Part shown: positions 8,489 through 38,544 of the stretch, piece after piece
Layout: every line of letters begins with the position of its first letter
Position numbering within the stretch: the stretch's first letter is position 1
From: Acidobacteriota bacterium
GTDB lineage: Bacteria; Acidobacteriota; B3-B38; Guanabaribacteriales; JAGGZT01
Assembly (NCBI GenBank): GCA_021161905.1
Contig: JAGGZT010000016.1
Location: forward strand, 1-38,544
Direction of reading: 5' to 3'
DNA: 38,544 bases
Position numbers and translations under genes: made by a program
The notes under the pieces: generated by a model
Databases searched by the model: none
Told to the model about the DNA's origin: nothing
Seen by the model: only the letters and a program-made list of their open reading frames with translations

Positions 8489-8516
8489 GGTTAGGCTTAA
8501 TTTCTATTCGGGTTCG

Positions 8517-9694: not shown

Positions 9695-9722
9695 ACTCTC
9701 TTTTGGGTAGTGAGAGGGAATC

Positions 9723-9757
9723 AAGCCCCTTCGGTAAGAAGGGGCTTTTAATTTTTA
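9723..9757 (+). terminator. Rho-independent terminator after the TPR gene
   Basis: A perfect 10-bp stem, AAGCCCCTTC (9723-9732) and GAAGGGGCTT (9738-9747), with loop GGTAA and a T-rich tail TTTAATTTTTA. It closes the exbB-tonB-TPR operon. Confidence 0.88.
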
Positions 9758-9775
9758 TGCGAGGAGAAATGACTG

Positions 9776-10459
9776 ATGGTGGAAACCGTTGATGAGCTCG
9801 CTAAGGCAATAGATTACACCTTACTGAAACCCCAAGCTGAGCGGAAGGTGGTACTCGATTTTCTGGAGAAGGCGAAGAAATATCGATTTTACTCCGTATG
9901 TATTCTCCCTTATCTTCTGCCCTTGGCAGCGAAGAAGCTCGCAAAAAGTGAGATGAGGCTCTCTACGGTGGTAGCTTTCCCTTTCGGGGGTACCACTAAG
10001 GAAGCGAAAATCGCCGAGGCGGTTGAGTGTGCTAAAATTGGTGCTACTGAGCTCGACATCGTGATCAACCTTCCCGCGGTTAAGATGGGGGATTATTCCT
10101 ATGTGAAAGAGGAACTCAGGTTGATAATGGAAAAAACCCCGGAAGTGGTGCATAAGATGATAATAGAGATCTCCCTCCTTTCGCCGGAGGAGCTGGATAA
10201 AGTGATAGGGATTATGAATGAGCTCTCTCCCGCTTTTGTGAAGACAGGGACCGGCTTTACCGCTCGGGGGGTCTCAGTAAGTGATGTTCTCCTCCTTAGG
10301 AAAAGGCTTGATCCGAGAATAAAGATTAAGGCAGCAGGCGGAATTCGCGATTTAGAAGCCGCCCTTGCCCTTATCGATGCTGGTGCAAAACGCTTAGGAA
10401 CATCGGCTGGGGTTGAGATCCTGAAGGAGTTCATTGAGAAAAAGGGTGGGGCTAATTAG
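9776..10459 (+). CDS. deoC: Deoxyribose-phosphate aldolase
   Basis: Cleaves 2-deoxyribose 5-phosphate to glyceraldehyde 3-phosphate and acetaldehyde in deoxynucleoside breakdown. It is 227 aa, the family size. The catalytic features are visible: D94 in ELDIVINLPAVK, Schiff-base K156 in FVKTGTGF, and K185 in IKAAGGI. GAGGAG lies nine nt before ATG 9776; the ATG at 9769 stops at once. The gene is alone between a terminator and a convergent operon. Its last eight bases form the palindrome CTAATTAG, which supplies both its own stop and the stop of the opposing gene. Confidence 0.94.
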   Translation: MVETVDELAKAIDYTLLKPQAERKVVLDFLEKAKKYRFYSVCILPYLLPLAAKKLAKSEMRLSTVVAFPFGGTTKEAKIAEAVECAKIGATELDIVINLPAVKMGDYSYVKEELRLIMEKTPEVVHKMIIEISLLSPEELDKVIGIMNELSPAFVKTGTGFTARGVSVSDVLLLRKRLDPRIKIKAAGGIRDLEAALALIDAGAKRLGTSAGVEILKEFIEKKGGAN

Positions 10460-11633
10460 TTTTATTTCCTACCTTCTCGAGGAGAAGATGATATTTGGAG
10501 ATGACCCGGTCCCAACGGTAGTTTTGGTGAGCGTAGCTAAAACCATTCTCGCCGAGTATATTTCGTAACCTCTCATCCTTAAGTAAGAGGATTAGACTCT
10601 CAGCAAATTCCTCGTAGTTTTTGTAATAAAGCCCCCCATTTGCCCGAAGGACATGTTCCACTAAGACAGGGCAATGTCCGTTCACCAATACCGCTTTCTT
10701 CTGAGCGAACGCCTCGAGGAGGGTGAGGGAAAGGCTTTCCAAAGGTGCAGGGATGACGACGAGTTCTGCTCCTTTATAGAGAGCGTATTTATCCTCCTCG
10801 GGCACAAAACCGAGATAGCGAATGTGGGGGTGGTCCGGTAACTTCATAAGAAGTTTCCCTATCAGGACGAGCTCGAGTTTTTCCCTTTCCTCCTTGAGGA
10901 AATGACTGAAAAAGGAGATGAGTTCTCCTATTCCTTTCCCTTTTTCAATTCTTCCCCCATAAAGGAGATAAGGCAGACGAAGGTTGTATTTTCTTTTCGC
11001 CCTTGCCGGTGATATCCCTTCTGGGAATTCCACCCCGCAGCCGATGACTTCGCTCGGTTTTTCTTTAAGCTCTGGGAAAAGCTCAACGAGAAACTTCTTC
11101 TCCCAGGGGGAGTTGTAAGCGATCCCTCTGGGAAGGGAGAACATCTCCCGGTAGATCTTAAGTCTTATTGCTGGCTCATCGTGGGCAGTCGGCTGGAGGA
11201 TGCTTTTTTCTCCCACCTCCTTTAGTCCGTGATAACAGGGGTAGTAAAGATAGGTGAAGAAGAAGAAGAGGTCGAACTGGTTTTTGGCTTTCTTGAGATA
11301 GGATATCATATCCGGCGAATAGGGTCCCTGGTCGCGAAGCCATTTAAGCTCATCCCCTCTCGTGTGGGGGTTGTTGAATATCCAATCGGAGTAGCGATTG
11401 AACTCTTCTATATTCCGTTCTCTCACCACCGGAAAGCGGATGATGGGGACGGAGTCGAGTTCATCCTTCCCCTCAGGGTACTCGTTCTTCCAGCTTATAT
11501 AGTCCTTGGCACAAGTGGTGATGACGGTGATATCGTAGCCACCCTTAAGGTGATTTATCACCTTGCGGCAATGTGCTTCCGACCCTCCGGTTACCTCCTT
11601 GCCGTACCGTTGGATGACGAAAGCTATTCTCAT
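10452..11633 (-). CDS. Glycosyltransferase, GT4 family (type A paralogue, distal)
   Basis: Retaining GT-B glycosyltransferase, 393 aa, the last gene of the glycan operon. The N-terminal Rossmann half starts VIQRYGKEVTGGSEAHCRKV, with the glycine-rich acceptor loop; the C-terminal half has a nucleotide-sugar site with the E-x7-E motif (ESLSLTLLEAF) near residue 300. It is clearly similar along its length to the gene at 13772-14995: both have QRYG, the TTCAxDY, W-x-NEYPxGK and ESLS..LLEAF blocks. The start overlaps the upstream stop by four bases (ATGA). The sugar transferred cannot be read from sequence. Confidence 0.88.
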   Translation of the reverse strand: MRIAFVIQRYGKEVTGGSEAHCRKVINHLKGGYDITVITTCAKDYISWKNEYPEGKDELDSVPIIRFPVVRERNIEEFNRYSDWIFNNPHTRGDELKWLRDQGPYSPDMISYLKKAKNQFDLFFFFTYLYYPCYHGLKEVGEKSILQPTAHDEPAIRLKIYREMFSLPRGIAYNSPWEKKFLVELFPELKEKPSEVIGCGVEFPEGISPARAKRKYNLRLPYLLYGGRIEKGKGIGELISFFSHFLKEEREKLELVLIGKLLMKLPDHPHIRYLGFVPEEDKYALYKGAELVVIPAPLESLSLTLLEAFAQKKAVLVNGHCPVLVEHVLRANGGLYYKNYEEFAESLILLLKDERLRNILGENGFSYAHQNYRWDRVISKYHLLLEKVGNKTN

Positions 11634-12706
11634 AGGTTGCCTATCTCCCTCAATATCTTCAAGAGCTTAGAAAGGGGTTTCTCCTTCTCCAAATGGGAGA
11701 TTCTCCTCCTCCCTCGCTCGATCAACCTTTTTCGTAGTTTTTCGTCGGTTGCGATGAGTAAGGTTAGCTCCGCTATCTCTGCGGGGTTCTTCTTCATAAG
11801 GAGTATTCCCCCCTCCCCCAGTGTTTCCGCTACCGCACCGGCGTTATAAGCGATTATGGGAAGGGAGAAGAGCATACCTTCCACCAGTGGAAGACAAAAC
11901 CCCTCGTGTTCGCTCAGGGATAGATATAGGGTCGCGTATTTGTAGAAAGAGATGAGTTCAGAGAAGGGGATGTGTCCGGTGAAGAGTAGTTCATCATCCC
12001 TGAGTTTCAGCCTGATGCCAAGCTCGAGGAGTTCCCTGTGATAATTGGGAAGGAGGTTCGTCTTGCCAACTACGATCAGGCGGAGACCATTTCCGACGAA
12101 ATGTTTGTAATAGGAAGCCACCTTTATCAGGTCTTCGATCTTTTTGTTGGGGACGACCCTGCCCACGAAGAGGATGTTTACTTTTTTGTGGGAGAGAAAT
12201 CGCTTTATAAAAGGAGAGGGTTCTGTCTCTCGATAGGGGCGGAAATCTATCGGTAGGGGGAGGACGGCGGTATTTTTAAAACCGAGTGCGATAAGCTCCT
12301 CCCTATTGAAACTGGAATCTCCAAGGGCGATATCGGGAAAGGAAACCAGCTCCTTGAGCTCCTTGCGGGCGAGGAGGGAGAGCCGGGTGAGTTCCCAGCT
12401 ATATTTGCTGAAGAAGGAAGCGGGGGTGACATTGTGGTAGATGAGCACTTTTTTCCCTGAGAGGTTTTTGAATGTCTCCGTTAGGGGAGAAGGGAGCATG
12501 AAATGAAGGATGGTTATCGAATCTCGTTCGTATTCCTGGAGGAAGTTCTTGAATTCCCTTGCCTCATTCCTGAGCCCCGGATCGATGGTGAGGGCGTAGA
12601 TTTCAGAGCGAATACCCTGCTCGATGAGAAAGTTCCGGATCATCCGAATCGAGTTACCGATGGCATCCCCCTCATGGAGGGCGGGAACGAGTTGATAGAC
12701 GATCAT
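11630..12706 (-). CDS. Glycosyltransferase, GT4 family (type B paralogue 2)
   Basis: GT-B glycosyltransferase, 358 aa. It begins VYQLVPALHEGDAIGN and has the donor-site FVGRVVPNKKIEDL near residues 175-190 and E-x7-E in SEHEGFCLPLVEGM near residue 260. It shares both blocks with its neighbour at 12703-13770 (GDAI, YHNITPA, GRIxPNKR, SEHEGFCLP), so the two are tandem duplicates that have diverged. Four-base overlaps on both sides (ATGA) suggest tight translational coupling in the operon. Donor and acceptor are unknown. Confidence 0.88.
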   Translation of the reverse strand: MIVYQLVPALHEGDAIGNSIRMIRNFLIEQGIRSEIYALTIDPGLRNEAREFKNFLQEYERDSITILHFMLPSPLTETFKNLSGKKVLIYHNVTPASFFSKYSWELTRLSLLARKELKELVSFPDIALGDSSFNREELIALGFKNTAVLPLPIDFRPYRETEPSPFIKRFLSHKKVNILFVGRVVPNKKIEDLIKVASYYKHFVGNGLRLIVVGKTNLLPNYHRELLELGIRLKLRDDELLFTGHIPFSELISFYKYATLYLSLSEHEGFCLPLVEGMLFSLPIIAYNAGAVAETLGEGGILLMKKNPAEIAELTLLIATDEKLRKRLIERGRRRISHLEKEKPLSKLLKILREIGNL

Positions 12707-13770
12707 CTCCCGTTTATCTCATTTAGCAGGTTTGCAAGCTCTTTCTTAAGATCGCGAGAAAGGTGTTTTTTTAAGACCCTTTTCTCATCCACTATAACCT
12801 TTTTCCTGAACTCCGCATCCTCTACGAGCTTGTGGACGATCTCAGCTATCTTCGGGGGGTCCTTTTCCTCCACCAGGATCCCTGCTCCCCCCATCGTCTC
12901 CGGTACAGCAGCAGCGGCAAAAGCGATCACCGGAAGCCCAAAGTAGTAAGCCTCAAGGATGGGAAGACAGAACCCCTCATGTTCGCTCATAATGATGAAG
13001 ATGTGAGCGAGTCGGTAGTAGGTGACGAGCTCGGAGAGGGGTATGAGCCCGGTGAAATGGACATCGGTCAGTTTTAGGGAGCGGATGAGATCGAGAAGAT
13101 AATCATAATACCGCTCGAATCCGCGATATTCCCCCACCAAGATGAGACGCGAGTTTGGATTTATGTAATGCTTGTAGTGGGAGAAGATCCTGATGACATC
13201 GTCCACCCGCTTATTGGGGATGATCCTTCCCACATAGAGGATGTTGGTTTTCCCGTCCCCGAATATTCGGCTGAGCACCCTATTCTCCTCGATATTGAAC
13301 TTCTTGAAGTTGATGAATACGGGAAGGACCCTTGTCCTGGTAAATCCAATTTCAACGAGCTCCAACCGGTTGAACTCGGAATCCCCTACAGCAACTTCGC
13401 ATTTATCTACAAAGGCAGCAAGCTCCCTTCGTCCATGATAACACTCCCTCGCCAGATGGGGATGGAACTTCAGGAAGAAGTGAGCCGGGGTGATGTTGTG
13501 GTAGATTAGAATCTTCTTCTCCTTGAGGTGATAGGCGAGCTTCGAGGCAAGGGAGGCGATAGAGAAGTGGAAGATGATGATGTTCTCCTTTGAGGAGAAT
13601 TCGGGATAGAAGGAGAGCGGTTTTACCTCCGAGGCGAGCTTTGGATCGTGGTTTTCGGCGAATATTAGGGAGCGGTAGCCAAGTTCCCGGAGTATCCTTC
13701 TTATCTCGAGGGCGTAATCGGTTATCGCATCACCATAGGAAGCTCCGGCGAGAAATTGGTGGATCTCCAT
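12703..13770 (-). CDS. Glycosyltransferase, GT4 family (type B paralogue 1)
   Basis: GT-B glycosyltransferase, 355 aa, sister of the gene at 11630-12706. N-terminal IHQFLAGASYGDAITDYA, a central HNITPAHFF, donor-site YVGRIIPNKRVDDV, a SEHEGFCLPILEAY E-x7-E motif and GGAGILVEEKDP near the C-terminus are all standard for GT4 enzymes of O-antigen or exopolysaccharide clusters. It begins one base after the upstream stop. Presence of two B-type copies between two A-type copies suggests two rounds of a similar pair of additions. Confidence 0.88.
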   Translation of the reverse strand: MEIHQFLAGASYGDAITDYALEIRRILRELGYRSLIFAENHDPKLASEVKPLSFYPEFSSKENIIIFHFSIASLASKLAYHLKEKKILIYHNITPAHFFLKFHPHLARECYHGRRELAAFVDKCEVAVGDSEFNRLELVEIGFTRTRVLPVFINFKKFNIEENRVLSRIFGDGKTNILYVGRIIPNKRVDDVIRIFSHYKHYINPNSRLILVGEYRGFERYYDYLLDLIRSLKLTDVHFTGLIPLSELVTYYRLAHIFIIMSEHEGFCLPILEAYYFGLPVIAFAAAAVPETMGGAGILVEEKDPPKIAEIVHKLVEDAEFRKKVIVDEKRVLKKHLSRDLKKELANLLNEINGR

Positions 13771-13771
13771 C

Positions 13772-14995
13772 TTAGTCTCTCTTGCTTAAGGTGAGAGGAG
13801 GTTCCCCATCTTCTGTGAGAAGCCGATTTATTATCTTCAGGTATTTTCCCTCGATTACCTCCCAACGGTAGTTCTCCTCGAAGTAGGACCTCCCGTTTTT
13901 TCCCATTCGTTCCCGCAGTTTCTTGTCTGATAAGAGGAGGTTTAACGCCTCGGCAAATTCCTCGTAATTCCGGTAATAAAGGGCGGCATTGCTCCTTTTT
14001 GCCTGCCCTCTCAAAACATCGCAAGCGCCGTTTACCAAAGCAGGTTTCCCCACCGCAAATGCCTCGAGCAACACCATCGAGAGCGATTCATAGTACGAAG
14101 GCATAACGAGAAGCTCAGAGGCAGCTAAGGCGTTGAACTTATCCTCCTCAGGAAGGAAGCCCAGGTGCACTATATTTGGATGGTCCGGAATGTCGAGTAC
14201 CTCTTTTCCGATGAGTACGAGAAGGAGATCCTCTTTATACTCTCGGATGTATTGCTCGAAGAAGCGAAAGAGCTCAGGGCAGCCTTTATTCTCATCGATC
14301 CTACCGAGGTAAAGGATAAACCGTTTCCCGATGTTGTATTTTTTGCGGAATGAAGTTGGAGAGATTTCATCCGGGATCTCAGCGCCTACCCCTACTACTT
14401 CCCCCGGTATATCCTCGTTTCCCGATGTTTTGTTTATCATCTCCCGCTCCTCATAGGAGTTATAGATTATCGACCGGGGGAGGTTGAAGAAGGGTTTGAA
14501 TATCTTGAGACCGATGACCGGGTCCTTCTCCGCAGTGGGAACGAGGATGCTTTTTTCGGGCACGGTATTAACCCCATGATAGGAGTGGTAATACCGGTAG
14601 GAGAAGAAGATGAAGAAGCGGTAGTCCTTCCGTTTCTTCTTTATATAGCGGATGAGGGCGGGGGAGTAAGGTCCCTCCTCTTTTAAGAAGTTGAGTTCAT
14701 CCTTTTCTCGATGGGGGTGGTTGAAGACGAACTCCTGTATCATCCCGAAACGGAAGGGATCGCGTTTCCTCCGCACCCGGAAGCGATGGACCGGGATGTC
14801 GTTTATCACCGTTTTCCCCTTCGGGTATTCGTTTGCCCAGGTGAGATAGTCGATGGCGCAGGTGGTGAGCACCTCGACGGGAAGGTATTTGTTTAAGTGT
14901 TCCGCAATAAGTCGGGCATGGTATTCGGCACCACCGCTTACCTCGAGGCCATACCGTTGAACTACAATGGCAACCTTTAGCCTGCTATTTTCCAT
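13772..14995 (-). CDS. Glycosyltransferase, GT4 family (type A paralogue, proximal)
   Basis: GT-B glycosyltransferase, 407 aa, sister of the gene at 10452-11633. It starts VAIVVQRYGLEVSGGAEYHA, carries TTCAIDYLTWANEYPKGK at about 60-77, the linker region with LYLGRIDENKGCPELF, and the E-x7-E motif in ESLSMVLLEAF. The start overlaps the end of the coiled-coil gene by 11 bases. No membrane helix is evident, so it should act at the cytoplasmic face on a lipid-linked or activated acceptor, as is known for the family. Confidence 0.88.
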   Translation of the reverse strand: MENSRLKVAIVVQRYGLEVSGGAEYHARLIAEHLNKYLPVEVLTTCAIDYLTWANEYPKGKTVINDIPVHRFRVRRKRDPFRFGMIQEFVFNHPHREKDELNFLKEEGPYSPALIRYIKKKRKDYRFFIFFSYRYYHSYHGVNTVPEKSILVPTAEKDPVIGLKIFKPFFNLPRSIIYNSYEEREMINKTSGNEDIPGEVVGVGAEIPDEISPTSFRKKYNIGKRFILYLGRIDENKGCPELFRFFEQYIREYKEDLLLVLIGKEVLDIPDHPNIVHLGFLPEEDKFNALAASELLVMPSYYESLSMVLLEAFAVGKPALVNGACDVLRGQAKRSNAALYYRNYEEFAEALNLLLSDKKLRERMGKNGRSYFEENYRWEVIEGKYLKIINRLLTEDGEPPLTLSKRD

Positions 14996-15539
14996 CTTCC
15001 CCTTTTTCTTTTTTCTCCTTAAGGGTAAGCTCCTCTAAAGTCCGTTCCCGCGTTTCCAGGAAGTCGACCCTTCGGGTAAGGGCGTTCAAGCGATGGCTTA
15101 GGTCCTCGTGGTCCAACCGGAGCTTGGTAAGTTCGAAGATAAGGTTATGGATCAGCTCGGCAAACACGAGATTGATCCTCGCCTGTTTGTTGATCTCCTG
15201 GATCAGGGGGTTGATATGGAACATAAGCTTGGCTACCAACCGGAGCCTTCTCCTTACCCAGCTTACTATACGGCCCAATGTGGTGGGACGGGAGATATAG
15301 AGTTTATCCACAGAGAGGGATACATTCCACTGGGGGTTCAATCGTTGTAGTTCCCTTACGAGGTCGCTTTTCAGCTCCGATGATTGGACGAAGAAGGAAG
15401 CGACCTTAGCCTGAGCGAGCCTCAATAGCTCTTCCTCGCTATATATCCCTTTTTTCTTCTTCTCCTCGATCCTCCTCCTTATCTTTTCCATTATCTCAGC
15501 CACATCGATATTCTCATAATCGATAGTGAACTTCTCCAT
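14985..15539 (-). CDS. Coiled-coil protein of a glycan operon, unknown function
   Basis: 184 aa without TM helix or signal peptide. The N-terminal stretch YENIDVAEIMEKIRRRIEEK resembles a short motif seen at the start of several proteins, including methyltransferases, in O-antigen clusters (inference from memory of the pattern). The middle has a basic segment (WVRRRLRLVAKLMF), then a region rich in I/L/N (INPLIQEINKQARIN), and the C-terminal third is a predicted coiled coil (RLDHEDLSHRLNALTRRVDF) ending in a Lys/Glu tail. It sits between the UbiA-type enzyme, whose stop abuts its start, and the first GT4 gene. It could scaffold the glycosyltransferases at the membrane; no catalytic motif is seen. 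Confidence 0.7.
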   Translation of the reverse strand: MEKFTIDYENIDVAEIMEKIRRRIEEKKKKGIYSEEELLRLAQAKVASFFVQSSELKSDLVRELQRLNPQWNVSLSVDKLYISRPTTLGRIVSWVRRRLRLVAKLMFHINPLIQEINKQARINLVFAELIHNLIFELTKLRLDHEDLSHRLNALTRRVDFLETRERTLEELTLKEKKEKGEDGK

Positions 15540-16454
15540 TTATACCCCCTTATAGAATAATTGATGGATGATGCCTTCTATCTTTGAAAGGTAGATGATA
15601 ATCGTTATCGCTCCTGCCCAGAGGGCGATAGCTATGAGGAGGGGTTTATCGGAGATGAGGATCTGGGAAGGATTTCCTCCGAGCCCTTTCTTATAGACGA
15701 GGTAGAGGTAGCGGAGTATCCCGTAGAGCACGAAGGGGATGGTAAGCGGAAGGTAGGGTCCAAATTTGATTACCGTCTCCATTGAGGTGGTATAAACGGC
15801 ATAGGATATAATGGATGAGGTGGCGGCGATCCCTATCATCTGATCAAGAAGGGATGGAGAATACAGGGTAAGATGTTCCCGATGGTAAGGGGCGTTTTCA
15901 GATAGGAAGAGAAGTTCATGCCTCCTCTTGGCTAATGCGAGGAAAAGAGCGAGGAAGGTGGTGCAGATGAGGAGCCAGGAGGAGAAAGGGACCTTGATCA
16001 CCACCGCCCCTGCCACCGCCCGGAGGACGAATCCCAAGGAGATGATGATGACATCGAGGATGAAGACATCTTTGAGGCGGAAGGAGTAGGAGATCATCAT
16101 CAGGAAGTAGATGGCCGAGATGAAGCCGAATGCCGGTTCAAGTATAAAGGAGAAGAGGAGGGAGAAGGCGGAAAGAAAAATAGCTGTTATAACCGCCACT
16201 TTCGGGCTTATCTTCCCTGCTGCAATTGGTCTTTTGGATTTTGTTGGATGAGCCTTGTCCCTATTTTTATCCTTCACATCGTTTATCAGGTAAACCGCTC
16301 CGGCCAAGAGAGAGAATAGGAAGAAGGCGATGGTCGTTTTTGAAAGCATAGCGAGATTGAAGAGGTTCTTCGAGAAGATAATGCCGGCAAATATCACCAG
16401 GTTCTTCGTCCATTGTTTGGGTCTCAGGGATACAATAAGATGTCTTACTTTCAT
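15540..16454 (-). CDS. UbiA-type polyprenyl-phosphate phosphoribosyltransferase (DPPR synthase-like)
   Basis: Polytopic membrane enzyme of 304 aa, close in length to the mycobacterial decaprenyl-phosphate 5-phosphoribosyltransferase. It opens with LRPKQWTKNLVIFAG, and has the UbiA aspartate motif NDVKDKNRD (58-66) followed by HPTKSKRPIAAGKIS, both typical of the branch that moves phosphoribose from PRPP to polyprenyl phosphate rather than prenylating quinones. In mycobacteria the product feeds arabinan synthesis through DprE1/DprE2, but no such epimerase is in the window. As first gene of an operon with four GT4 enzymes it probably provides a lipid-linked furanose donor. The exact lipid and final sugar are inferred, not shown. 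Confidence 0.85.
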   Translation of the reverse strand: MKVRHLIVSLRPKQWTKNLVIFAGIIFSKNLFNLAMLSKTTIAFFLFSLLAGAVYLINDVKDKNRDKAHPTKSKRPIAAGKISPKVAVITAIFLSAFSLLFSFILEPAFGFISAIYFLMMISYSFRLKDVFILDVIIISLGFVLRAVAGAVVIKVPFSSWLLICTTFLALFLALAKRRHELLFLSENAPYHREHLTLYSPSLLDQMIGIAATSSIISYAVYTTSMETVIKFGPYLPLTIPFVLYGILRYLYLVYKKGLGGNPSQILISDKPLLIAIALWAGAITIIIYLSKIEGIIHQLFYKGV

Positions 16455-16496
16455 CCTCTATCCTTATTAAGGTTAAATAAGCGGTAAGGCTTTCAT

Positions 16497-16525
16497 TTCT
16501 TATCACAAAAGGGTTTTCTTGTCAA
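16497..16525 (-). promoter_or_regulatory. Candidate promoter of the UbiA/GT4 glycan operon
   Basis: On the minus strand TTGACA (16525-16520), 17 nt, then TAAGAA (16502-16497), a perfect -35 with a weak -10. It falls in the only gap of the region, 74 bases between the metalloenzyme stop and the UbiA-type start, and leaves a leader of roughly 35 nt. Confidence 0.5.
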
Positions 16526-16528
16526 CCA

Positions 16529-17398
16529 CTACCCGAGGATACTGAGGATGGCTGGGGTGAGGTCGGTAAGCGAGGCGACTTCATCGATCAGTGTTTTCTT
16601 CTCTCTCCCGAAGGCAAGGAGGGGAACTGGATTCTCAGTGTGTTCTTTGGTTGAGAGGTCCTCCAGGTTGCCATGGTCGGAGATGATGGCGACCGTCTCC
16701 TCGTCAAGGTTGATATGGGAAAGGAGGGAGGTGAGGAAATTTTCCAGCTCGGCAATCAGAGTGCAAGCAGCGGAGAGGTCCCCCCGGTGTCCTATGATAT
16801 CGGTTTTGAAATATTCATAGAGGGTAAAATCGTAAGAGGCTGAGATGTTAGCAAGTCGTCTTCCCGCCTCCTCTGGCTTCAAGGGAGAGACAGGGTATCC
16901 CCGTTCGATAAGAAAGTGGTTGGTAAAATCTTGATATATTGCCTTTCCCTCGTTCAGATCCTCAAGGGTGAAGATGGGAAGAGAGGAAGCAAGCACAGAA
17001 GCGGTAGTTACCGATACCCGACGGATTAAGCGGTTGAGGAAGTCAGGGCGATAGGCGTTGGCAAAGGCAACCTTTTTCCCCCTTTCCTTCAATATCTTCA
17101 GGATGTTATATTCCGCAAGAAGCTCCACAAGCTCCCGATTGGGAAGGCTGGGAAGATGTTTCCCTATTACCATTGCCGCATTTATTCCGGTGAGGATGCT
17201 CGTTTGTCCCGTAGCACTCTGGGGAAGTCCAGGAACGGAAAGACGAGCATCCACCTCCCGCACCGTACCGTAAAAGGGGGGCTTTAGACTTACCCCTCGG
17301 CGAGGGAAATATCGGGAGGGAAGGCGGGCAAAGGGATTTCGTTTGGGATCGTCCTCACCCACCCCCACCCCATCGAGGAGGATAAGAAGAAAGCCCAT
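16529..17398 (-). CDS. Alkaline-phosphatase-superfamily metalloenzyme (phosphoglycerate mutase/phosphopentomutase-like)
   Basis: 289 aa. Metal-binding motifs of the iPGM/phosphopentomutase group are in place: D9 in LILLDGVGVG, the nucleophile loop SATGQTS at 61-67, D200 and H204 in DIIGHRG, D240-H241 in ISDHGN, and H253 in KEHTENPVPL. It is much shorter than iPGM (about 510 aa) and lacks room for its second domain, so it is one of the small unassigned metalloenzymes of this superfamily. A longer in-frame start at 17467 would run 67 bases into atpE; the ATG at 17398, directly after the atpE stop with GAGG before it, is far better. Co-transcription with F0 genes is likely; substrate unknown. 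Confidence 0.8.
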   Translation of the reverse strand: MGFLLILLDGVGVGEDDPKRNPFARLPSRYFPRRGVSLKPPFYGTVREVDARLSVPGLPQSATGQTSILTGINAAMVIGKHLPSLPNRELVELLAEYNILKILKERGKKVAFANAYRPDFLNRLIRRVSVTTASVLASSLPIFTLEDLNEGKAIYQDFTNHFLIERGYPVSPLKPEEAGRRLANISASYDFTLYEYFKTDIIGHRGDLSAACTLIAELENFLTSLLSHINLDEETVAIISDHGNLEDLSTKEHTENPVPLLAFGREKKTLIDEVASLTDLTPAILSILG

Positions 17399-17399
17399 A

Positions 17400-17726
17400 C
17401 TACCTCGCAAAGAGAAAGATAATCGCCAGTGTGTATAGGGCAAGCGATTCGATGAAAACCAAGCCAAGGATGAGACTTCCTCGAATGTCTCCGGCGGCTG
17501 AAGGGTTTCTCGCTATCCCCTCACAGGCTGAGGAGGCCGCTTTTGCTTGCCCAATACCGCAAAGCCCGGAGGCGATCGCCATCCCGAAACAGGCAGCGAG
17601 GACAGCCATTTTTGCTACCTCGGGATTGGTCTTTTTAAGGTCCACCTTTTCTTGAGCGAAGACAGTATGGGGAAGGATGAGGATGAGGATGATAAGACTG
17701 ACGAGCAGGATCACTTTTTTCTTCAT
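17400..17726 (-). CDS. atpE: F0F1 ATP synthase subunit c with Na+-binding signature
   Basis: Rotor-ring proteolipid, 108 aa, longer than usual (about 80-90) because a signal-peptide-like segment, residues 1-24 ending VFAQ, precedes the two-helix hairpin. Helix 1 has GIGQAKAASSACEGIARNP and helix 2 has FIESLALYTLAI. The ion-binding carboxylate is E93. Q60, S94 and Y98 fall at the same spacing as Q32, S66 and Y70 of the Ilyobacter tartaricus Na+ ring (Q-to-E distance 33 in both), so a sodium-driven synthase is suggested. The conserved loop R-N-P is intact. It follows atpB after 12 bases. Confidence 0.93.
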   Translation of the reverse strand: MKKKVILLVSLIILILILPHTVFAQEKVDLKKTNPEVAKMAVLAACFGMAIASGLCGIGQAKAASSACEGIARNPSAAGDIRGSLILGLVFIESLALYTLAIIFLFAR

Positions 17727-17738
17727 TTTATCCTCCTT

Positions 17739-18449
17739 TTACTCTTCGGGGTTTAGCGCCCCGGCAAGATAGATTATCGATAAAACTACAAAGACATAAG
17801 CCTGAATTATAGCGACAAAGAAACTTAGTCCCATAAAGGGAATAGGGAGCACAAGGGGAAGAAAAGAGAAGAAAACGAGATAGACAATGTGATCCCCATA
17901 GATGTTGCCGAAAAGCCGTACTGAAAGGGAGAGGATTCGAGCCAGATGGCTTAGTATTTCGGTGGGGAACCTAAGGGGAAGAAGCCATAATGGTTGTCCT
18001 CCAATGCTCCTGATATAGCGAAAGAACCCGTGCTTCTTTAAACCAGCATAGTTGTAAGCGAAGAATGAGATAAGGGCAAGGGCTAAGGTAGTATTATAAT
18101 TGGCGGTGGCTGAGGAGAACCCGGGGACATAACCGATGATGCTTGCTACCAGAATGAAGAAGCCGAAGGTACCGACCAGGGGGAGGTACCTCCTACCCTC
18201 TTCTCCAATGTAGTCATCGATGAGACGCTCTAAGTATTCAACCGTTATCTCCAGTATCTGTTGTAGATAGCTGGGTCGCCTGATCCTGAAGCGACGGCGG
18301 AGGAGGGGCAGAAAGATCGCCGCAAGGAGAACGATGAAAGCGGTCATCACTACCTGATCTGGAATGAGATGGTAATCTGGAGGATAACCGAGCAGGTGAT
18401 TAAGGACACTGTTTATCAGCTTGGTAAGTATCGATTCCTCAACTTCCAT
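17739..18449 (-). CDS. atpB: F0F1 ATP synthase subunit a
   Basis: Stator channel subunit of F0, 236 aa, with at least five hydrophobic helices. The essential arginine is R178 in SLSVRLFGNIYGDH, followed by the conserved last helix FVAIIQAYVFVVLSIIYLAGA, which contains the Gln facing the ring. The start overlaps atpI by 11 bases. Together with atpZ, atpI and atpE it forms a set of membrane-sector genes only; the b, delta and F1 genes are not nearby, so the operon is split in this genome. Confidence 0.93.
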   Translation of the reverse strand: MEVEESILTKLINSVLNHLLGYPPDYHLIPDQVVMTAFIVLLAAIFLPLLRRRFRIRRPSYLQQILEITVEYLERLIDDYIGEEGRRYLPLVGTFGFFILVASIIGYVPGFSSATANYNTTLALALISFFAYNYAGLKKHGFFRYIRSIGGQPLWLLPLRFPTEILSHLARILSLSVRLFGNIYGDHIVYLVFFSFLPLVLPIPFMGLSFFVAIIQAYVFVVLSIIYLAGALNPEE

Positions 18450-18798
18450 CTGATGCTCTCTTCCTCAGCTTAACGGCGAACAGGGAACCAACTGGTGCCC
18501 CCAAAATACCTATTATAACTCCAATGGGCTCAATTATACCTCTTTTTAGTATCAAAAATAAGATTCCACCAAGGATGAAAAGCTTCAAGGGGATGATAAT
18601 TAGGAGGAGTTTTCTCCTTTTCCCTGTGGTCAAACTGATTACAAGGAGGTAGCTGGAGCCAAGGCTAATAAGAGCTATTACACCACCGAGGATAATACCG
18701 GGAAGAAACTCCCTTTTCAAGAAGAGGGAGAGGAAAGCAGACAAAAAAATGAATATTATAGTGGCAAGAACCATTCGCTTTAGGGAAACTTCCCTCAC
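18439..18798 (-). CDS. atpI: ATP synthase subunit I-like membrane protein
   Basis: 119 aa with four hydrophobic helices (about 9-27, 31-55, 62-83, 86-108) and charged ends, the size and layout of AtpI, which helps assemble the c ring. Sequence conservation in this family is low, so the call leans on its position directly before atpB and after an AtpZ-like gene. The ATG at 18798 overlaps the upstream stop by four bases, indicating coupled translation. Confidence 0.75.
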   Translation of the reverse strand: MREVSLKRMVLATIIFIFLSAFLSLFLKREFLPGIILGGVIALISLGSSYLLVISLTTGKRRKLLLIIIPLKLFILGGILFLILKRGIIEPIGVIIGILGAPVGSLFAVKLRKRASDGS

Positions 18799-32035: not shown

Positions 32036-32065
32036 GGTGATAAATTTTCGTCTTTTCTTATTGTT

Positions 32066-32095
32066 TTGGCATCTAAATAATAGAAGACTTATAAT
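32066..32095 (+). promoter_or_regulatory. Promoter P2 of the ECF sigma gene
   Basis: TTGGCA (32066-32071), 18-nt spacer, TATAAT (32090-32095): five and six matches to the consensus. Transcription would start near 32102, only about four bases before the GTG at 32106. Confidence 0.6.
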
Positions 32096-32105
32096 CCGGA
32101 GATCG

Positions 32106-32702
32106 GTGGAAGAGCGGGACGAAGTTTTAGTAGATAGGTTCCTTTCTGGAGACGAGGCGAGCTTCAACCAGCTTTTAAGAAGGTGGGAGAAGCCGGTTTA
32201 TAACCTTGTCCTCCGCTTGCTTGGCGATGTTGAGGAGGCGAAGGATGTATGCCAGGAGGTGTTCCTTAAGGTTTACCAGAACCTTGGCCGGTTTAAGAAG
32301 AGGGCGAAGTTCTCCTCCTGGCTCTATCAGATCGCGATAAACCAGTCGAGAAGCCACCTCCGGAGAAGAAGGGGTAAAAGGTTCATCTCCTTAGAGACGC
32401 CGGAGGGGAAAAGGCTTGAGGAAGGTGATGGAAAAGGAACGGATTCCCTTCTTCCTCCTGAAGAGGAGGTTCAGCGGAAGGAGGTGGTTGCCTTGCTTAG
32501 AAAGGCGCTCGCTCTGCTTCCCGAGGAGCAGAAATTGGTGGTCCTCCTCAAGGAGTACCAGGGGCTTAAGTTTTCAGAGATCGCCGAGATCGTTGGCTGT
32601 CCCTTGAGTACGGTTAAGTCCCGCCTTTATCTTGGGCTTTCTAACTTGGCGGGGATCATTGCAAGTTTAAATGGGGGAGATAAAAAATCCCTTTTGCTAT
32701 AG
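32106..32702 (+). CDS. ECF-family RNA polymerase sigma factor
   Basis: 198 aa from GTG 32106 (GGAG four bases upstream). The open frame reaches back to a GTG at 32037, but the extra 23 aa are hydrophobic and not family-like. Region 2 is at about 12-80: LLRRWEKPVYNLVLRLLGDVE, then DVCQEVFLKVYQNL and FSSWLYQIAINQSRSHLRRR. A linker with charged residues follows, and region 4 is at about 130-185 with LPEEQKLVVLLKEYQG and FSEIAEIVGCPLSTVKSRL as the helix-turn-helix. It is followed 12 bases later by its zinc-finger anti-sigma gene. The upstream region holds two candidate promoters and an operator. Confidence 0.92.
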   Translation: MEERDEVLVDRFLSGDEASFNQLLRRWEKPVYNLVLRLLGDVEEAKDVCQEVFLKVYQNLGRFKKRAKFSSWLYQIAINQSRSHLRRRRGKRFISLETPEGKRLEEGDGKGTDSLLPPEEEVQRKEVVALLRKALALLPEEQKLVVLLKEYQGLKFSEIAEIVGCPLSTVKSRLYLGLSNLAGIIASLNGGDKKSLLL

Positions 32703-32714
32703 GGGGTTGGGGGT

Positions 32715-33410
32715 ATGATGAAGGATAAAGAGCATAAAGATTTCCAAAACGAGCTGATCGAATTCCTCTACGGTGAGCTCTCGCCCGAGAAGGAGAAGGA
32801 GTTAAAAGCTCATCTTGAGGAGTGTGCTTCCTGTCGCGATGCCCTTTCTCGCCTTTCCTCAGTTAGGGAGCTTCTTGGAAAGTGGGAGGATGTTGAGCCA
32901 CCATATCGCCTTATCTTCCTCGCGTCCTCGAAGGAGTCCTTTTTCTCCTCGGTTCGTTCCTTCTTTTCTCGGCTTTCCCCGGTAGTTAAAGGAGTGAGCG
33001 TTTCCTTTATTTTTCTTTTCGCTTTTCTCGTTGTCGCTTCACTCGTCAATCTCGAGGTGAGTTATGAGAAGGGTAAGTTTCACCTTTCGACCGCGCTCTT
33101 TCCCAAAGCCAAGATAAAAACGCTCACTCCTGCCGATCGTGAAGAGATCTATCAGGCGATAAGGGCGGCACAGGAGGAGACCTTGGCTACGGTGAATAAC
33201 CTTCTTCTCAAGCAGGATCAAGCGCAGAGGGAGGATCTTGCTCAAGCGTTCGATGAGCTACTTGATCAGATCGATGAAAGAAGGAGAGCTGATCTCGCCT
33301 ACTTTGGGGAAGGGCTGAGCTATCTCGATCAGCGCTCCTTGTTGAATTACCAGCGGACGAAGGAGCTTATGAAGTATGTCCTGAAAACCTCGGGTAAACC
33401 TCCCCGCTGA
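32715..33410 (+). CDS. Zinc-finger anti-sigma factor with one membrane helix
   Basis: 231 aa. The cytoplasmic N-terminus has the ZAS zinc motif H33-x3-C37-x2-C40 (AHLEECASC) within a region that starts ELIEFLYGELSPEKEKEL. TM helix at about 93-113. The periplasmic part is a charged, mostly helical tail (QREDLAQAFDELLDQIDERR) with no recognised sensor domain. It should hold the upstream ECF sigma factor at the membrane until an envelope signal releases it. Two adjacent ATG codons (32715, 32718) are possible starts. Its stop and the stop of the facing gene together make the palindrome TGATCA. Confidence 0.88.
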   Translation: MMKDKEHKDFQNELIEFLYGELSPEKEKELKAHLEECASCRDALSRLSSVRELLGKWEDVEPPYRLIFLASSKESFFSSVRSFFSRLSPVVKGVSVSFIFLFAFLVVASLVNLEVSYEKGKFHLSTALFPKAKIKTLTPADREEIYQAIRAAQEETLATVNNLLLKQDQAQREDLAQAFDELLDQIDERRRADLAYFGEGLSYLDQRSLLNYQRTKELMKYVLKTSGKPPR

Positions 33411-35492
33411 TCACTTCCTTCCCTTTCGGGCGAGCTCGAGGAAGTTGAAGGCGACCGCTATTCTCCTTTTGTCTTCGCTCATTCCAAGCTCTTTCGGGGA
33501 GGAGACCCATTTATAGGTGAAATCCACCCGGTTTATCCCATAATGGAATATCCCTTCCCCTAGATTAAATGCATAGTTATTAAACCCTTCAGCTAAGGTG
33601 ATAGGGGGTAATTTCTTCCCGTTCACGCTGATAAAGAGCATTTGCTTCGGCATTTTAGGATGGACGAAGGGAGCAGCGTTCACCACCATTTGTAGAGGTT
33701 CTCCCTTATCAAGGTAGAAGAATAAGGTTGATTTTTCTCCGCAAGACCAGCGGAAGGGGATCTTTCCGTCCCAGCGTTCTGGGTATGACCAGCCATCGCC
33801 GAGGAATATTCGGTCGTTCTTTCCGAAGTCTATCCGTGCTCTTCCAAAGCGTTTTCCCGGCTGTAGGAGCCAGTTTCCGAAGAGGAGATCACACCTTGCT
33901 GGTGAGAGCCCTGTCTTCAGGGAGAAATAAAGAGTTAACGGGAATGAGAAGGGGTAACCGATGAACCGATAGAGGAGACCGATCTTTCTTCCCGCGAGGA
34001 AGGAGAAGGAGACGGAGCTTTCCCGTGGGATCACAAAGGTGGCGAAGAGGGTGGCAAGGAGTATGTTCGAGAGCATAAAAAGAACGATGATGGTAAAGGC
34101 AATCTCGGTAGATCTCTTCCTGATAAACCTGATTAGAGCTTCGATAAAGGAAGCGAGGCCAATGGCGAAGAAGAGGGATGAACAGATAAATCGCCTGTCG
34201 CCGAAGGAGCCACCAGCCCACCAATTGGTGGCAGCGGAGTTCACCCAAAGCATTCCAAGGAAGGGAATGGCGAGGAGAAGGGTTAATTTTCTATCTCGGG
34301 GGTAAAAGAGGAAGATGCCAATCAAGGCGAGATATATAAGTGGTGTCCAGGAGAGGAGCCCATGCCGGGAGGAAAAGAGTACCTCGAGCACCCGGGGGGA
34401 CCCCCAACGGAGGAAGCTCCCGCCATAGGGGTTGCCGATATAAGGGACGCCGTAAATTATCTTCCACACGATCATCTGGGGGGAGGCCCCAAGGAGGAAA
34501 CCACCCAAAAAAATGAGATTTCCCCAAAAGAGCTTCTTGGTAGCGACAAACTCCCTTCTTTTGAGGTACTCAAAATAATAAAGAAGAGAATCGATAGCCG
34601 GGACGATCATAAAGAATCCGGTCTGGTAGCGGACCATCGTCATCAGACCACCAGCGATCCCCATAAGTAGCCAATTTTTGAAGCTCCGCCTCCCCCGTCC
34701 CCGATACCAGAGGTAGAGGAAGAGGGTTACCGCAAACAGGGAGCAGGCGTGGGGCATATGTGGCTGTCCTACCAGGTACCAGAATATCTGGGTGCCCAGG
34801 GTGAGGGCGAAGGCGGTGATGATAGCGGTCTTTTTCTCGAAGAAATCCTTCAGCACTTCGTAGATGAGAAGGATGCCGAAAAAGCCGTAGGTGAGGCTTC
34901 CTAAATGTACCCCCATGGCATAGGGATAGCTAAAACCGTCCAGAGGCACTACCGCCCCAAGAAGGGCGAGGAATTTAGCCACCCCCATTCCGAGGAGGAA
35001 GAAGGGGATCCAGAGGAAGGCGGGTCCAAAGGCATAGATGTTTCTCAGGTGTCCCGTTGGGGAGCGCCATTTGAGATAGGGTCTGTCAGCTATTCCGAAT
35101 ATCTGGTATTCGTTGTCGAAGTGAAGATCGTGATCAATGAACATTGAGCGAACATAAGAGTAGTAGTACATACCGTCGGCACCAATGTGCCCCCCAGTGG
35201 TAGTAGCGGTGATGGCGATGAGTACAGAGAAGAGGAGTATGAGGAGAAATATATTCCTATCCCGGATCCTAAAGAAGGAATGCTCCCCCCTTTTCCCGAA
35301 GAAGGCGCCCTTGGGGTTTAAGAAGATGATGAGGAGGAAAGCCGAGAGGACTAAGACAGTGAGGAAATAACATCGATAAAGGAAGGATAGCGATGGCACC
35401 TTTTCCAGGTAGGGACCGCCGAGGGTAGAAAATAGAAATAAACCGCCGATGATTAACAAACTGATCTTTATTACCAGAGAGAATCTCTTCAT
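33411..35492 (-). CDS. Polytopic glycosyltransferase-like membrane protein with C-terminal beta-rich domain
   Basis: 693 aa with about twelve TM helices up to residue 530 or so. The first large periplasmic loop begins near 100 with GGHIGADGMYYYSYVRSMFI and an acidic D120-H-D122 group, as in GT-C enzymes (ArnT/PMT/GT39-like), which use polyprenyl-phosphate sugars. The last 128 residues (566-693) are soluble, with VSSPKELGMSEDKRR and VNGK motifs, and match the C-terminus of the SGNH hydrolase encoded just upstream. GGGGAGGGGAAA precedes the ATG. Being last in the operon with a carbamoyltransferase and hydrolase, it likely acts in surface-glycan decoration. The precise sugar is unknown. Confidence 0.78.
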   Translation of the reverse strand: MKRFSLVIKISLLIIGGLFLFSTLGGPYLEKVPSLSFLYRCYFLTVLVLSAFLLIIFLNPKGAFFGKRGEHSFFRIRDRNIFLLILLFSVLIAITATTTGGHIGADGMYYYSYVRSMFIDHDLHFDNEYQIFGIADRPYLKWRSPTGHLRNIYAFGPAFLWIPFFLLGMGVAKFLALLGAVVPLDGFSYPYAMGVHLGSLTYGFFGILLIYEVLKDFFEKKTAIITAFALTLGTQIFWYLVGQPHMPHACSLFAVTLFLYLWYRGRGRRSFKNWLLMGIAGGLMTMVRYQTGFFMIVPAIDSLLYYFEYLKRREFVATKKLFWGNLIFLGGFLLGASPQMIVWKIIYGVPYIGNPYGGSFLRWGSPRVLEVLFSSRHGLLSWTPLIYLALIGIFLFYPRDRKLTLLLAIPFLGMLWVNSAATNWWAGGSFGDRRFICSSLFFAIGLASFIEALIRFIRKRSTEIAFTIIVLFMLSNILLATLFATFVIPRESSVSFSFLAGRKIGLLYRFIGYPFSFPLTLYFSLKTGLSPARCDLLFGNWLLQPGKRFGRARIDFGKNDRIFLGDGWSYPERWDGKIPFRWSCGEKSTLFFYLDKGEPLQMVVNAAPFVHPKMPKQMLFISVNGKKLPPITLAEGFNNYAFNLGEGIFHYGINRVDFTYKWVSSPKELGMSEDKRRIAVAFNFLELARKGRK

Positions 35493-35558
35493 TTTCCCCT
35501 CCCCAAGATGTAGCTTTCCCCTTAATGTTAGCCGAGTGAGGGCAAAGGTTCAACCAGC

Positions 35559-37073
35559 TTATCTTATTCCAATGGCGTCGAAGCAGACGGAAAGCTTCCG
35601 CGGGTCATCCCCCAACCCATTCTCCTTGGGTGAAGAGGAATAGGCATAATAGAAGGTAATGCTGTTAAACCCAGGACGGAGAAGCCCCGGCGTTAGAGGG
35701 AGGGTATAGTCCCTAAATCCCGGCTTAGAAACGAGAGTGATGTTTCCACTATATTTCCCATTTACGATAACGGTTATCTTCTGTCTTCTCCCCTTCTTAG
35801 GGAGGAAGGGATAGCACCTGAGGTGTAAGGTCCCCTTCTCCTTCGGCGAGTAAAGGAGGATGTGCGATTCCTCTCCCACCCCCCAGCGGAAGTTTACCCC
35901 AGCACCTCTTTCCTTGGCGGAGAGACCAGAGACGATAAAAAAGCCATCTTCTCCTCCGATGTCAACGGTTGTTGGTATTTTGTTTTTGGGAAGGCTGAGG
36001 ATATCCTTCCGTAAGAGGAATGTTTGGATCTCGTCGGCGATCAATCGGTGTATCTTCGCTTTTGGGTGGAAGTAATCGAGGAAGGGGTTTTCCCCGGTTC
36101 TCTTATGCCATGCTTTGAGTACCGGATAGAGATCGAGCACCTCTATATCAAATTCCTTGGCGAACCCTTCAATTATTTGCTGAGGTTTAATCGATAAATC
36201 GTCGTAATATATCTGGGCGAGACTGGGGATGAGGACGAAGACCAATTTAATTCCCCTATCCGCAGCCATCTTAGCCATCCCCTGCATTTCCTTTTTTGCT
36301 TCGCGGTATATGGGGTCGTTTGCATCGAGGGGGGCATAGAGCTTCTTTTCTGGAATAAAGGTTGCCTCTTTATTCCTTTCTCCTCTTCTTTCTGGTTTTC
36401 CTTTCCTAACTCGGGAGAGAAGAAATTGGAGGAATCTGCTCTTCCTCACTATAAATGGAGGGGGCTTCAGGTTTACCCCCTCTGAGTGGAGAGAATATAC
36501 CCTCTGCGAAGCGATGAAACCGTTACCGAAGTAATAGGAACGGGCACCGTCAAAGTCGTTGTCCATACAGATAGCAATTATGGCTACCTTCGGTTTTAGT
36601 ATAGGATAAAGGAGTTTAAGGAGCTCATAGTATTGGGTGAGGTTGTACCCGTTTATCCCGGCATTTATTACCTCGATGGGTAGTTCAAATGGGTTGTCGG
36701 AGAGCTTCTCCTCAAGCACCTTGGGGAAAGTATCCGAAATACTTACCCCCCAACCAAAGGTTATGGAGTCGCCTATAGTGATTATCCTTAAGCCAGAAAA
36801 TTCTTTTTTTATCTCGTATTCCCTATCCCGCAAGCCGAGCGAATTTATGTAAACCCGAATACCGTTTCCCATAAGGTAGCGGGAATTCGGCTTTAAGGTA
36901 TATCCCAGCCGCTTATTTTTGCTCTTTAGATAGATGAACCGGTCGATCTTTTTCCGAAGTTTTGGATGCCAGAAGAGCCTCGTCCCTATTTCTGCTAAAC
37001 CGAAGAAGAAAAGGATAGAGAAAAGGGTAAGGAGGCTTCCTATGATGAGTTCCTTGCGTTTCCCTTCCGCCAT
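35559..37073 (-). CDS. Membrane-anchored SGNH/GDSL hydrolase with C-terminal beta-rich domain
   Basis: 504 aa: an N-terminal TM helix (about 9-28), then an SGNH esterase/acyltransferase domain with GDSITFGWG at 101-109 (nucleophile S103), NAGINGYN at 138-145 (Gly and Asn blocks), and DYFHPKAK at 333-340 (D333, H336). A second, separate C-terminal domain (382-504) contains VNGK and YSSSPKENGLGDDPRK. The hydrolase part is of the kind that adds or removes O-acetyl groups on exported glycans (AlgJ/AlgX-like in general function). The C-terminal domain recurs in the next gene. It follows the 59-aa gene after 17 bases. Confidence 0.85.
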   Translation of the reverse strand: MAEGKRKELIIGSLLTLFSILFFFGLAEIGTRLFWHPKLRKKIDRFIYLKSKNKRLGYTLKPNSRYLMGNGIRVYINSLGLRDREYEIKKEFSGLRIITIGDSITFGWGVSISDTFPKVLEEKLSDNPFELPIEVINAGINGYNLTQYYELLKLLYPILKPKVAIIAICMDNDFDGARSYYFGNGFIASQRVYSLHSEGVNLKPPPFIVRKSRFLQFLLSRVRKGKPERRGERNKEATFIPEKKLYAPLDANDPIYREAKKEMQGMAKMAADRGIKLVFVLIPSLAQIYYDDLSIKPQQIIEGFAKEFDIEVLDLYPVLKAWHKRTGENPFLDYFHPKAKIHRLIADEIQTFLLRKDILSLPKNKIPTTVDIGGEDGFFIVSGLSAKERGAGVNFRWGVGEESHILLYSPKEKGTLHLRCYPFLPKKGRRQKITVIVNGKYSGNITLVSKPGFRDYTLPLTPGLLRPGFNSITFYYAYSSSPKENGLGDDPRKLSVCFDAIGIR

Positions 37074-37090: not shown

Positions 37091-37270
37091 CTAAAATAGG
37101 GTGTAGATGAGTGGAGCAAGCGCCGAGCTCTCGGTAAAGATGATAAGAGCAGCGACGAGTAGCAACAGGATAATAATAGGAAGAAGCCAGAAGCGTTTCC
37201 GTTGCTTGAGGAAAGCCCAGAGCTCGGAGAGGGAGTATATCTTTCTTTTTATCCCCTTTATAATTCCCAT
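37091..37270 (-). CDS. DUF5989-family small membrane protein
   Basis: A 59-aa protein, below the size that automatic finders often keep. It reads MGIIKGIKRKIYSLSELW, then AFLKQRKRFWLLPIIILLLL, one TM helix (about 29-45) and the ending TESSALAPLIYTLF. The pattern K-x-x-S-E-L-W-x-F-L-x-x-R-K-x-F/W-W-L-x-P and the end S-x-x-A-P-F/L-I-Y-T-L-F are those of the DUF5989 family, found next to carbamoyltransferases and SGNH hydrolases. GAGAGGAGATT is right before the ATG. It starts nine bases after the carbamoyltransferase stop. Function unknown; probably a membrane partner of that pair. Confidence 0.85.
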   Translation of the reverse strand: MGIIKGIKRKIYSLSELWAFLKQRKRFWLLPIIILLLLVAALIIFTESSALAPLIYTLF

Positions 37271-37279: not shown

Positions 37280-38544
37280 TCAGTCAAGGGGGATTTCCTT
37301 CCGCCATTCCTCATAGGGAAGCGGAGGTACATCCCTTTTATCGATAATGAAATTCTCCATTACCAAATAGTCAAGCCCCGTTCTCCTGAGGCAGGAGTAA
37401 GCGTCGGAGGGGGTGCAAACTATCGGTTCTCCCCGAACATTGAGCGATGTATTAAGGATCACAGGGCATCCGGTCAGTCTCTTGAAGGCGGATATTAGTT
37501 TGAAGTAGCGAGGGTTATCCTCATAGCGTACTGTATGAAGTCTTGACGAGCCGTCGATGTGGGTTATTGCTGGAACCTCGGTGGGCTTTTTCACCTGGGC
37601 AGTAAGCAGCATAAACGGGCTTTCGCCCTCGATATCGAAGTAGTCAGAAGCATCATCTATAAGCACTGAAGGGGCAAAGGGACGGAACCATTCCCGGAAT
37701 TTCACCCTTTTGTTGAGTTTTTCCTTCATATCGGGATCACGGGGATCGGCTAAGATGCTTCTATTTCCCAGCGCCCGAGGACCAAACTCCATTCTTCCCT
37801 GAAACCAGGCGACGAGCTTACCATCGGCGAGTAGCTTAGCCGTTTCTTCGATAAGCTCATCATCAGCAAGTTCGCGGTAGGGTACCTTTTCCCTATCGAG
37901 AAAGTCCCTTATCTCCGCTCGGCTGAAGGCGGGTCCATAATAGGGGTGATGCCATGGCTTACTCCTTCCCTTTTTTAGGATTGAGCTGTAAACGAAAAGT
38001 GCTGCCCCCACTGCCCCGCCAGCGTCACCCGCCGCCGGCTGGATGAACAGCGATGAAAAGGGTGATTGACGGAGAATCCTGCCATTTGCCACGCAGTTCA
38101 ACGCCACCCCACCCGCCATACAGAGGTTGGGCAAACCCGTTTCCCGATGGAGGTGATCCACCATTTTTAGAAGGATGTCCTCGGTCACCTTCTGGATACT
38201 CGCGGCGATGTCCATATGTCGCTCCTCTAAGGGAGATTCCGGTTCCCTTGGTGGTGAGCCGAATAGCTCTTCAAACTGCTTCGATATCATCCTCAAGCCA
38301 TAGTCGTAGGCGAAATAGTGCATATCGAGTTTGAAGCTTCCGTCATCCCTAAGTTCGATCAGTTCCATTATCTTATCGTAGTAGCGTGGCTTACCATAAG
38401 GAGCGAGCCCCATTACTTTGTATTCAGCGGAGTTCACCTTGAAGCCAAGGTAATAAGTGAAGGCGGAATAAAGAAGACCGAGAGAATGGGGGAAGCGGAT
38501 CTCCTTTAATATTTCGATCTCCTCACCCCTCCCCACACCGTAGG
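37280..38544 (-). CDS. Carbamoyltransferase, NodU/CmcH family (5' partial)
   Basis: The gene continues past the right edge; the 418 aa after the first in-window GTG (38536) are its C-terminal two thirds, and the preceding codons Y-G fit the family pattern YGVGRG. Conserved blocks: FPHSLGLLYSAFTYYLGFK, YKVMGLAPYGKP, a LCMAGGVALNCVANGRIL block, QPAAGDAGGAVGAAL, GRMEFGPRALGNRSIL, EWFRPFAPSVL and LNTSLNVRGEPIVC. These are the TsaD/Kae1-like ATP-using domain and the C-terminal carbamoylating part of NodU, TobZ and CmcH. It adds a carbamoyl group to a sugar hydroxyl or similar acceptor, and is the first visible gene of the glycan operon. Confidence 0.92.
   Translation of the reverse strand, partial: YGVGRGEEIEILKEIRFPHSLGLLYSAFTYYLGFKVNSAEYKVMGLAPYGKPRYYDKIMELIELRDDGSFKLDMHYFAYDYGLRMISKQFEELFGSPPREPESPLEERHMDIAASIQKVTEDILLKMVDHLHRETGLPNLCMAGGVALNCVANGRILRQSPFSSLFIQPAAGDAGGAVGAALFVYSSILKKGRSKPWHHPYYGPAFSRAEIRDFLDREKVPYRELADDELIEETAKLLADGKLVAWFQGRMEFGPRALGNRSILADPRDPDMKEKLNKRVKFREWFRPFAPSVLIDDASDYFDIEGESPFMLLTAQVKKPTEVPAITHIDGSSRLHTVRYEDNPRYFKLISAFKRLTGCPVILNTSLNVRGEPIVCTPSDAYSCLRRTGLDYLVMENFIIDKRDVPPLPYEEWRKEIPLD

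Follow-up and report, generated by a model that had tools for sequence, protein, structure and literature searches.

The described systems that come closest to the proteins discussed here include three proteins. The GT-C arabinosyltransferase EmbC has a C-terminal lectin-like carbohydrate-binding module (CBM) that binds the acceptor glycan (PMC3044687); AlgX, an alginate O-acetylation protein, combines an SGNH domain with a C-terminal CBM (PMC4148444); and BcsB of cellulose synthase carries carbohydrate-binding domains (CBDs), among which CBD-1, a jelly roll, docks BcsC (PMC11379886).

The window (the whole stretch of DNA that was analysed, 38,544 nucleotides) contains an operon with genes for a GT-C protein and an SGNH protein that end in one and the same domain of ~140 residues (Table 1). 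Like EmbC, the GT-C protein is a GT-C enzyme with a predicted jelly-roll module at its C-terminus, and AlgX offers a precedent for the SGNH protein, an SGNH domain with a C-terminal jelly-roll module; but the EmbC C-terminus consists of two subdomains with a Ca2+ site, AlgX acts on alginate, and no sequence relation to the domain was found for either. BcsB (Pfam PF03170) is the top Foldseek match of both copies, with a weak sequence signal to the corresponding strands, and is, as predicted for the domain, a periplasmic jelly roll serving a membrane glycan synthase; BcsB, however, repeats a CBD together with a flavodoxin-like domain, whereas the domain in the window is single and fused to catalytic domains (BcsB itself is absent from the window's own genome). 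Families CBM35, CBM36, CBM6 and CBM51 match in predicted fold, but have no significant sequence relation to the domain, which has its own signature and, unlike CBMs on glycoside hydrolases, is found mostly on biosynthetic and modifying enzymes.

A shared C-terminal domain on two different enzymes

Compared as whole proteins by BLASTP, the GT-C and SGNH proteins match with 76.6 bits (E = 7e-19; 36% identity and 52% positives over 132 columns), and the only significant local match pairs residues 554-683 of the former with 370-499 of the latter. The local score is 189, whereas 1000 shuffles average 28 and never exceed 56. By this comparison the two C-termini are homologous, as the initial annotation of the window had proposed, and every motif block it quoted is found in both proteins. 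The domain limits it gave (566-693 in the GT-C protein and 382-504 in the SGNH protein) are right at the ends but not at the start: profile envelopes (541-693 and 358-504, respectively) place the start ~15 residues earlier. The N-terminal halves are unrelated, as was also claimed, with PMT_2 matched in one and Lipase_GDSL_2 in the other.

The GT-C protein shows both features expected of its class, a PMT_2-type membrane region (41.1 bits; cut-off 26.1) and a catalytic-loop acidic motif, GADG at 104, which lies in an outside loop. The SGNH protein matches Lipase_GDSL_2 above the cut-off and has the residues expected of an SGNH hydrolase intact: the serine of the GDS block (101-103, S103) and the aspartate and histidine of a DxxH block (DYFH at 333-336, D333 and H336). 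Both copies of the domain are probably extracytoplasmic, because the hydrophobic segments and loop charges of the GT-C protein put its C-terminus outside, and basic residues stand ahead of the N-terminal anchor of the SGNH protein (positive-inside rule); this agrees with the periplasmic placement suggested initially.

Table 1. Coordinates of the window features and of domain-bearing loci elsewhere
Feature	Sequence	Coordinates	Strand	Length	Basis
ECF-type sigma factor and putative anti-sigma factor genes	window	32037-33410	(+)		read from sequence
Gene adjoining the GT gene	window	32715-33410	(+)		
GT-C-type polyprenyl-sugar glycosyltransferase-like membrane protein	window	33411..35492	(-)	693 aa	Pfam PMT_2, E 2.7e-10; hydrophobic segments, positive-inside counts
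Domain copy 1 (residues ~550-693 of the GT-C protein)	window	33414..33845	(-)		BLASTP, profile envelope, conserved columns, AF2
SGNH/GDSL hydrolase or transferase, N-terminal membrane anchor	window	35559..37073	(-)	504 aa	Pfam Lipase_GDSL_2, E 7.6e-11
Domain copy 2 (residues ~367-504 of the SGNH protein)	window	35562..35975	(-)		BLASTP, profile envelope, conserved columns, AF2
DUF5989 small membrane protein	window	37091..37270	(-)	59 aa	Pfam PF19451, 77.3 bits, E 9e-22
NodU/CmcH-type carbamoyltransferase, N-terminus lost at contig end	window	37280..38544	(-)		Carbam_trans_C, E 1.6e-73; Carbam_trans_N matched from profile position 172 on
Glycan locus, same genome	L015 (G000:C31)	1491-18659			
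Degenerate N-terminal domain copies (two)	L015 (G000:C31)	in 1491-3428 and 16461-18659			
Sulfatase-type proteins with [WY]-T-x-x-S	L014; L015	12558-14783; 8207-10513			Pfam Sulfatase
B12-binding radical-SAM protein, C-terminal copy	L110 (G000:C39)	5578-7272			
Almost domain-only lipoproteins	L113; L114	6304-6849; 6883-7473			

Predicted fold and conserved residues

AlphaFold2 models of both copies are all-beta with the same strand order (copy 1: pLDDT 60.3, pTM 0.60; copy 2: pLDDT 65.1, pTM 0.64), the cores reaching 70-90; confidence is moderate overall and poor in the first ~40 residues, and the models are not independent, as both runs used window-only alignments of the same two sequences. 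Foldseek searches of the PDB return for both copies BcsB CBDs, CBM36, CBM35, CBM6, CBM61, CBM51, a CE2 esterase and PL4, with E-values of 1e-4 to 2e-5 against CBM and BcsB jelly rolls and TM scores (query) of ~0.4-0.55 for CBMs, while a viral structure library gives mostly generic phage tail/adhesion proteins and no closer relative. Both copies are predicted, at the moderate confidence of the models, to have the galactose-binding-like/jelly-roll fold of CBMs. A beta-domain resembling jelly-roll CBMs is what had been expected, and the outcome named as speaking against it, different folds for the two regions, did not appear.

Sequence signals towards known folds are weak, but concordant with the jelly-roll/galactose-binding-like class. 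The best PDB profile match is CBM35 2w3j (E 0.05); the domain consensus matches Pfam BcsB (PF03170) with E 0.0015 and 17.4 bits, below the cut-off of 21 (the window copies themselves give no match to this model); and hhalign against BcsB from six relatives aligns the right strands with a probability of 10% and P 0.003, which is not significant.

The signature of the domain is GW...E...F-x-W ... VNG ... G-x-N ... SP ... D-x-R-x-L. Columns W27, W41, P125, D134 and R136 of the consensus (R 97%) are conserved in both main host groups; the arginine is at 95-100% in these groups and in the rest, and the Trp pair and Asp are near-invariant. The conserved residues are G567, W568, E572, W582, Q617, N624, G652, N654, P666, D674 and R676 in copy 1, and G383, L384, E388, W397, Q431, N438, G468, N470, P482, D490 and R492 in copy 2 (where Leu replaces the first Trp). 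Both a binding site and a structural lock are conceivable for these residues.

For the window copies, a Pfam search relaxed to E <= 10 still returns nothing for the domain region, which also lacks an NCBIfam match and a PDB sequence match covering it. Thirty family members compared with named domains of the Pfam/NCBIfam type give isolated sub-threshold hits only, and a literature search found no published description. The domain is real, widespread and unnamed in Pfam and NCBIfam, a new family within a known fold and working principle. The initial annotation had also called it unnamed, and the full match to a described Pfam or CAZy module that would have spoken otherwise was not encountered.

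Spread across genomes and host enzymes

A 30-row profile (E <= 1e-4), run on sampled genomes, finds the domain in 140 out of 396 genomes (97 out of 210 genera) of the phylum of the window genome, and in 25 out of 68 genomes of Hydrogenedentota. A scan with the GT protein gave one Hydrogenedentota locus, where the match lies within the GT part and the domain is absent. No match to plasmids was found by tblastn with the SGNH-type copy, nor to plasmids and phages with the domain consensus.

The 66 domain rows of our census come from distinct host proteins: 25 sulfatase-superfamily proteins (alkaline-phosphatase superfamily), 24 GT-C proteins (17 assigned by sequence and seven from their TM content), three pectate-lyase-like proteins, two SGNH proteins, one Wzy protein (O-antigen ligase-like) and 11 others. 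The pairing of glycan-building with glycan-modifying hosts, read initially from a single operon, is thus seen far beyond it. Position goes with host type: every one of the 25 sulfatase-type hosts has the domain at its N-terminus, whereas GT-C, SGNH, Wzy and pectate-lyase-like hosts have it at the C-terminus. Further N-terminal placements are seen in a 12-TM protein (L047) and in a weak copy in L015:1491-3428.

Wherever the active-site segment of the sulfatase-type hosts is readable, it reads [WY]-T-x-x-S, with Thr at the nucleophile position, and the C/S-x-P-x-R formylglycine signature of true sulfatases is not found in these segments. Phosphotransferases of the alkaline-phosphatase superfamily also have Thr there. 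Because of this residue, a phospho-type transferase or hydrolase activity is likelier for these hosts than a sulfatase activity; they also give weak matches to phosphoethanolamine (pEtN) transferase models. Proteins with [WY]-T-x-x-S that match Pfam Sulfatase include one each in L014 and L015 (Table 1) and their relatives.

Small lipoproteins that are little but the domain occur in three genomes (G349, G176 and G098; in G098 the ORF has a long N-terminal extension, which probably reflects a misplaced start). Two almost domain-only lipoproteins (L113, 181 aa, and L114) adjoin a conserved gene of ~430 residues and of unknown function. Tandem pairs of the domain in a single protein are seen in L044 and L045, the latter protein being O-antigen-ligase-like (Wzy_C).

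Clustered copies in the same genome

In the window's own genome (2.09 Mb searched), copy 1 finds eleven places and a nine-copy profile fourteen, ten of them clear. These ten form four clusters: each has another copy within 10 kb (10 out of 10, versus 0.84 expected under random placement), and hosts of different enzyme classes occur together at three of the four loci. Among the clear hosts, GT-C proteins lie on contigs C62 (three in a row), C31, C71 and C16; C31 and C71 also carry sulfatase-superfamily hosts, and the SGNH protein completes the list. Weaker copies are found in a Wzy_C protein, a B12 radical-SAM protein and a small lipoprotein-like protein.

In the glycan locus on C31 (L015), glycosyltransferases occur together with a sulfatase-type protein and two GT-C proteins that carry the domain; two degenerate N-terminal copies are present as well. 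The gene for the B12-binding radical-SAM protein (L110) has no visible glycan locus around it, and the protein, with a C-terminal copy, has no obvious export signal.

History of the domain

In a maximum-likelihood tree of 66 copies, many deep forks of which are unsupported, the copies group by host type: the sulfatase label changes six times (20.2 in shuffles) and the GT-C label six times (19.7 in shuffles). The GT copy of the window falls closest to GT-C copies from C62, and the SGNH copy is placed elsewhere. Identities within loci are 0.19-0.40, not clearly above the between-locus mean of 0.27. The module is thus old on each enzyme type, with a small number of transfers, and not freely mobile. 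Two parts of the initial annotation find no support: the domain was called mobile, whereas it mostly follows enzyme type and the copies of the operon are not closest relatives; and it was thought to bring both enzymes to a common polymer, but likeness within a locus does not clearly exceed likeness between loci.

Possible roles

We infer, with moderate confidence, that the domain is an ancient, autonomous, extracytoplasmic jelly-roll accessory module, CBM-like, which probably keeps a glycan or its carrier close to the catalytic domain. It would sit outside the cytoplasm, next to the catalytic part of enzymes involved in building or decorating envelope or exported glycans, and would position the acceptor glycan, or a moiety shared by lipid-linked glycans, beside the active site; in the operon it would serve sugar transfer in the GT-C protein, and acyl transfer or removal in the SGNH protein. 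The homology, the clustered copies, the mixed host classes, the shared strand order of the models, the fold matches, the weak sequence signals, the conservation of W/W/E and D-x-R in both host groups, and the parallels with EmbC, AlgX and BcsB speak for such a module. Against it stand the two-sequence models (mean pLDDT 60-65); the weak hhalign result for BcsB; the key polar residues, near-invariant across enzymes expected to act on different glycans, which are as compatible with a structural role as with a common ligand; and the B12 radical-SAM host without visible export signal and outside an obvious glycan locus, since a cytoplasmic-looking host argues against a strictly periplasmic role.

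Jelly rolls also act as purely structural or protein-docking modules. Packing of the jelly roll on the catalytic domain, or binding to partners in the envelope machine, with no glycan binding of its own, would agree with the fixed position in each enzyme class and the tracking of host type on the tree, and the invariant P, D and R within one long loop resemble a structural lock; such a role stays alive because one BcsB CBD, CBD-1, docks BcsC (PMC11379886). We regard it as somewhat unlikely, given the domain-only lipoproteins, the tandem copies in single proteins, and the attachment, on either side, to very different catalytic folds. It is more doubtful that the module uses the Arg and Trp residues to recognize a substrate-wide feature, such as a conserved anchor sugar or polyprenyl-(pyro)phosphate, and so marks the lipid-linked pool instead of one polymer: the near-invariant Arg (95-100%), Trp pair and Asp would fit, and the hosts are largely enzymes of lipid-linked glycan chemistry, but the pectate-lyase-like hosts have no obvious role on lipid-linked glycans. 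Recent copying of 3' ends between the neighboring operon genes (gene conversion or duplication), without functional meaning, would fit the adjacency of the genes and a likeness limited to their 3' part, but we reject it as hardly credible, with an identity of only 34-36%, a window GT copy that resembles copies on another contig and other GT-C copies at least as closely, and a domain present in 140 out of 396 genomes of the phylum.

If the CBM-like module does bind glycan, acceptor recognition by GT-C enzymes becomes testable on a small soluble domain. In its widest form, which we put forward as speculative and probably too broad, the family defined by the Trp/Trp/Asp-x-Arg signature would be a shared recruitment module for glycan assembly and decoration outside the cytoplasm, in two bacterial phyla or more, recognizing one feature of lipid-linked or exported glycans and thereby co-localizing transferases, ligases, and phospho- and acyl-modifying enzymes. 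The breadth of hosts is informative. The domain flags loci at which sugar transfer, phospho-type modification, acylation and ligation probably act together in a single glycan system, and the family merits a name for more than 100 sampled genomes whose envelope glycan enzymes are annotated by their catalytic half only.

Genomic surroundings of the two genes

Between the SGNH and carbamoyltransferase genes lies a gene for a DUF5989 protein that the initial annotation does not mention. The start of the gene cluster is out of view, because the carbamoyltransferase gene is cut by the end of the contig, whose length is exactly 38,544 bases. On the other side of the GT gene, the gene pair read as an ECF-type sigma factor and a putative anti-sigma factor abuts it, the adjoining gene being convergent with the GT gene.
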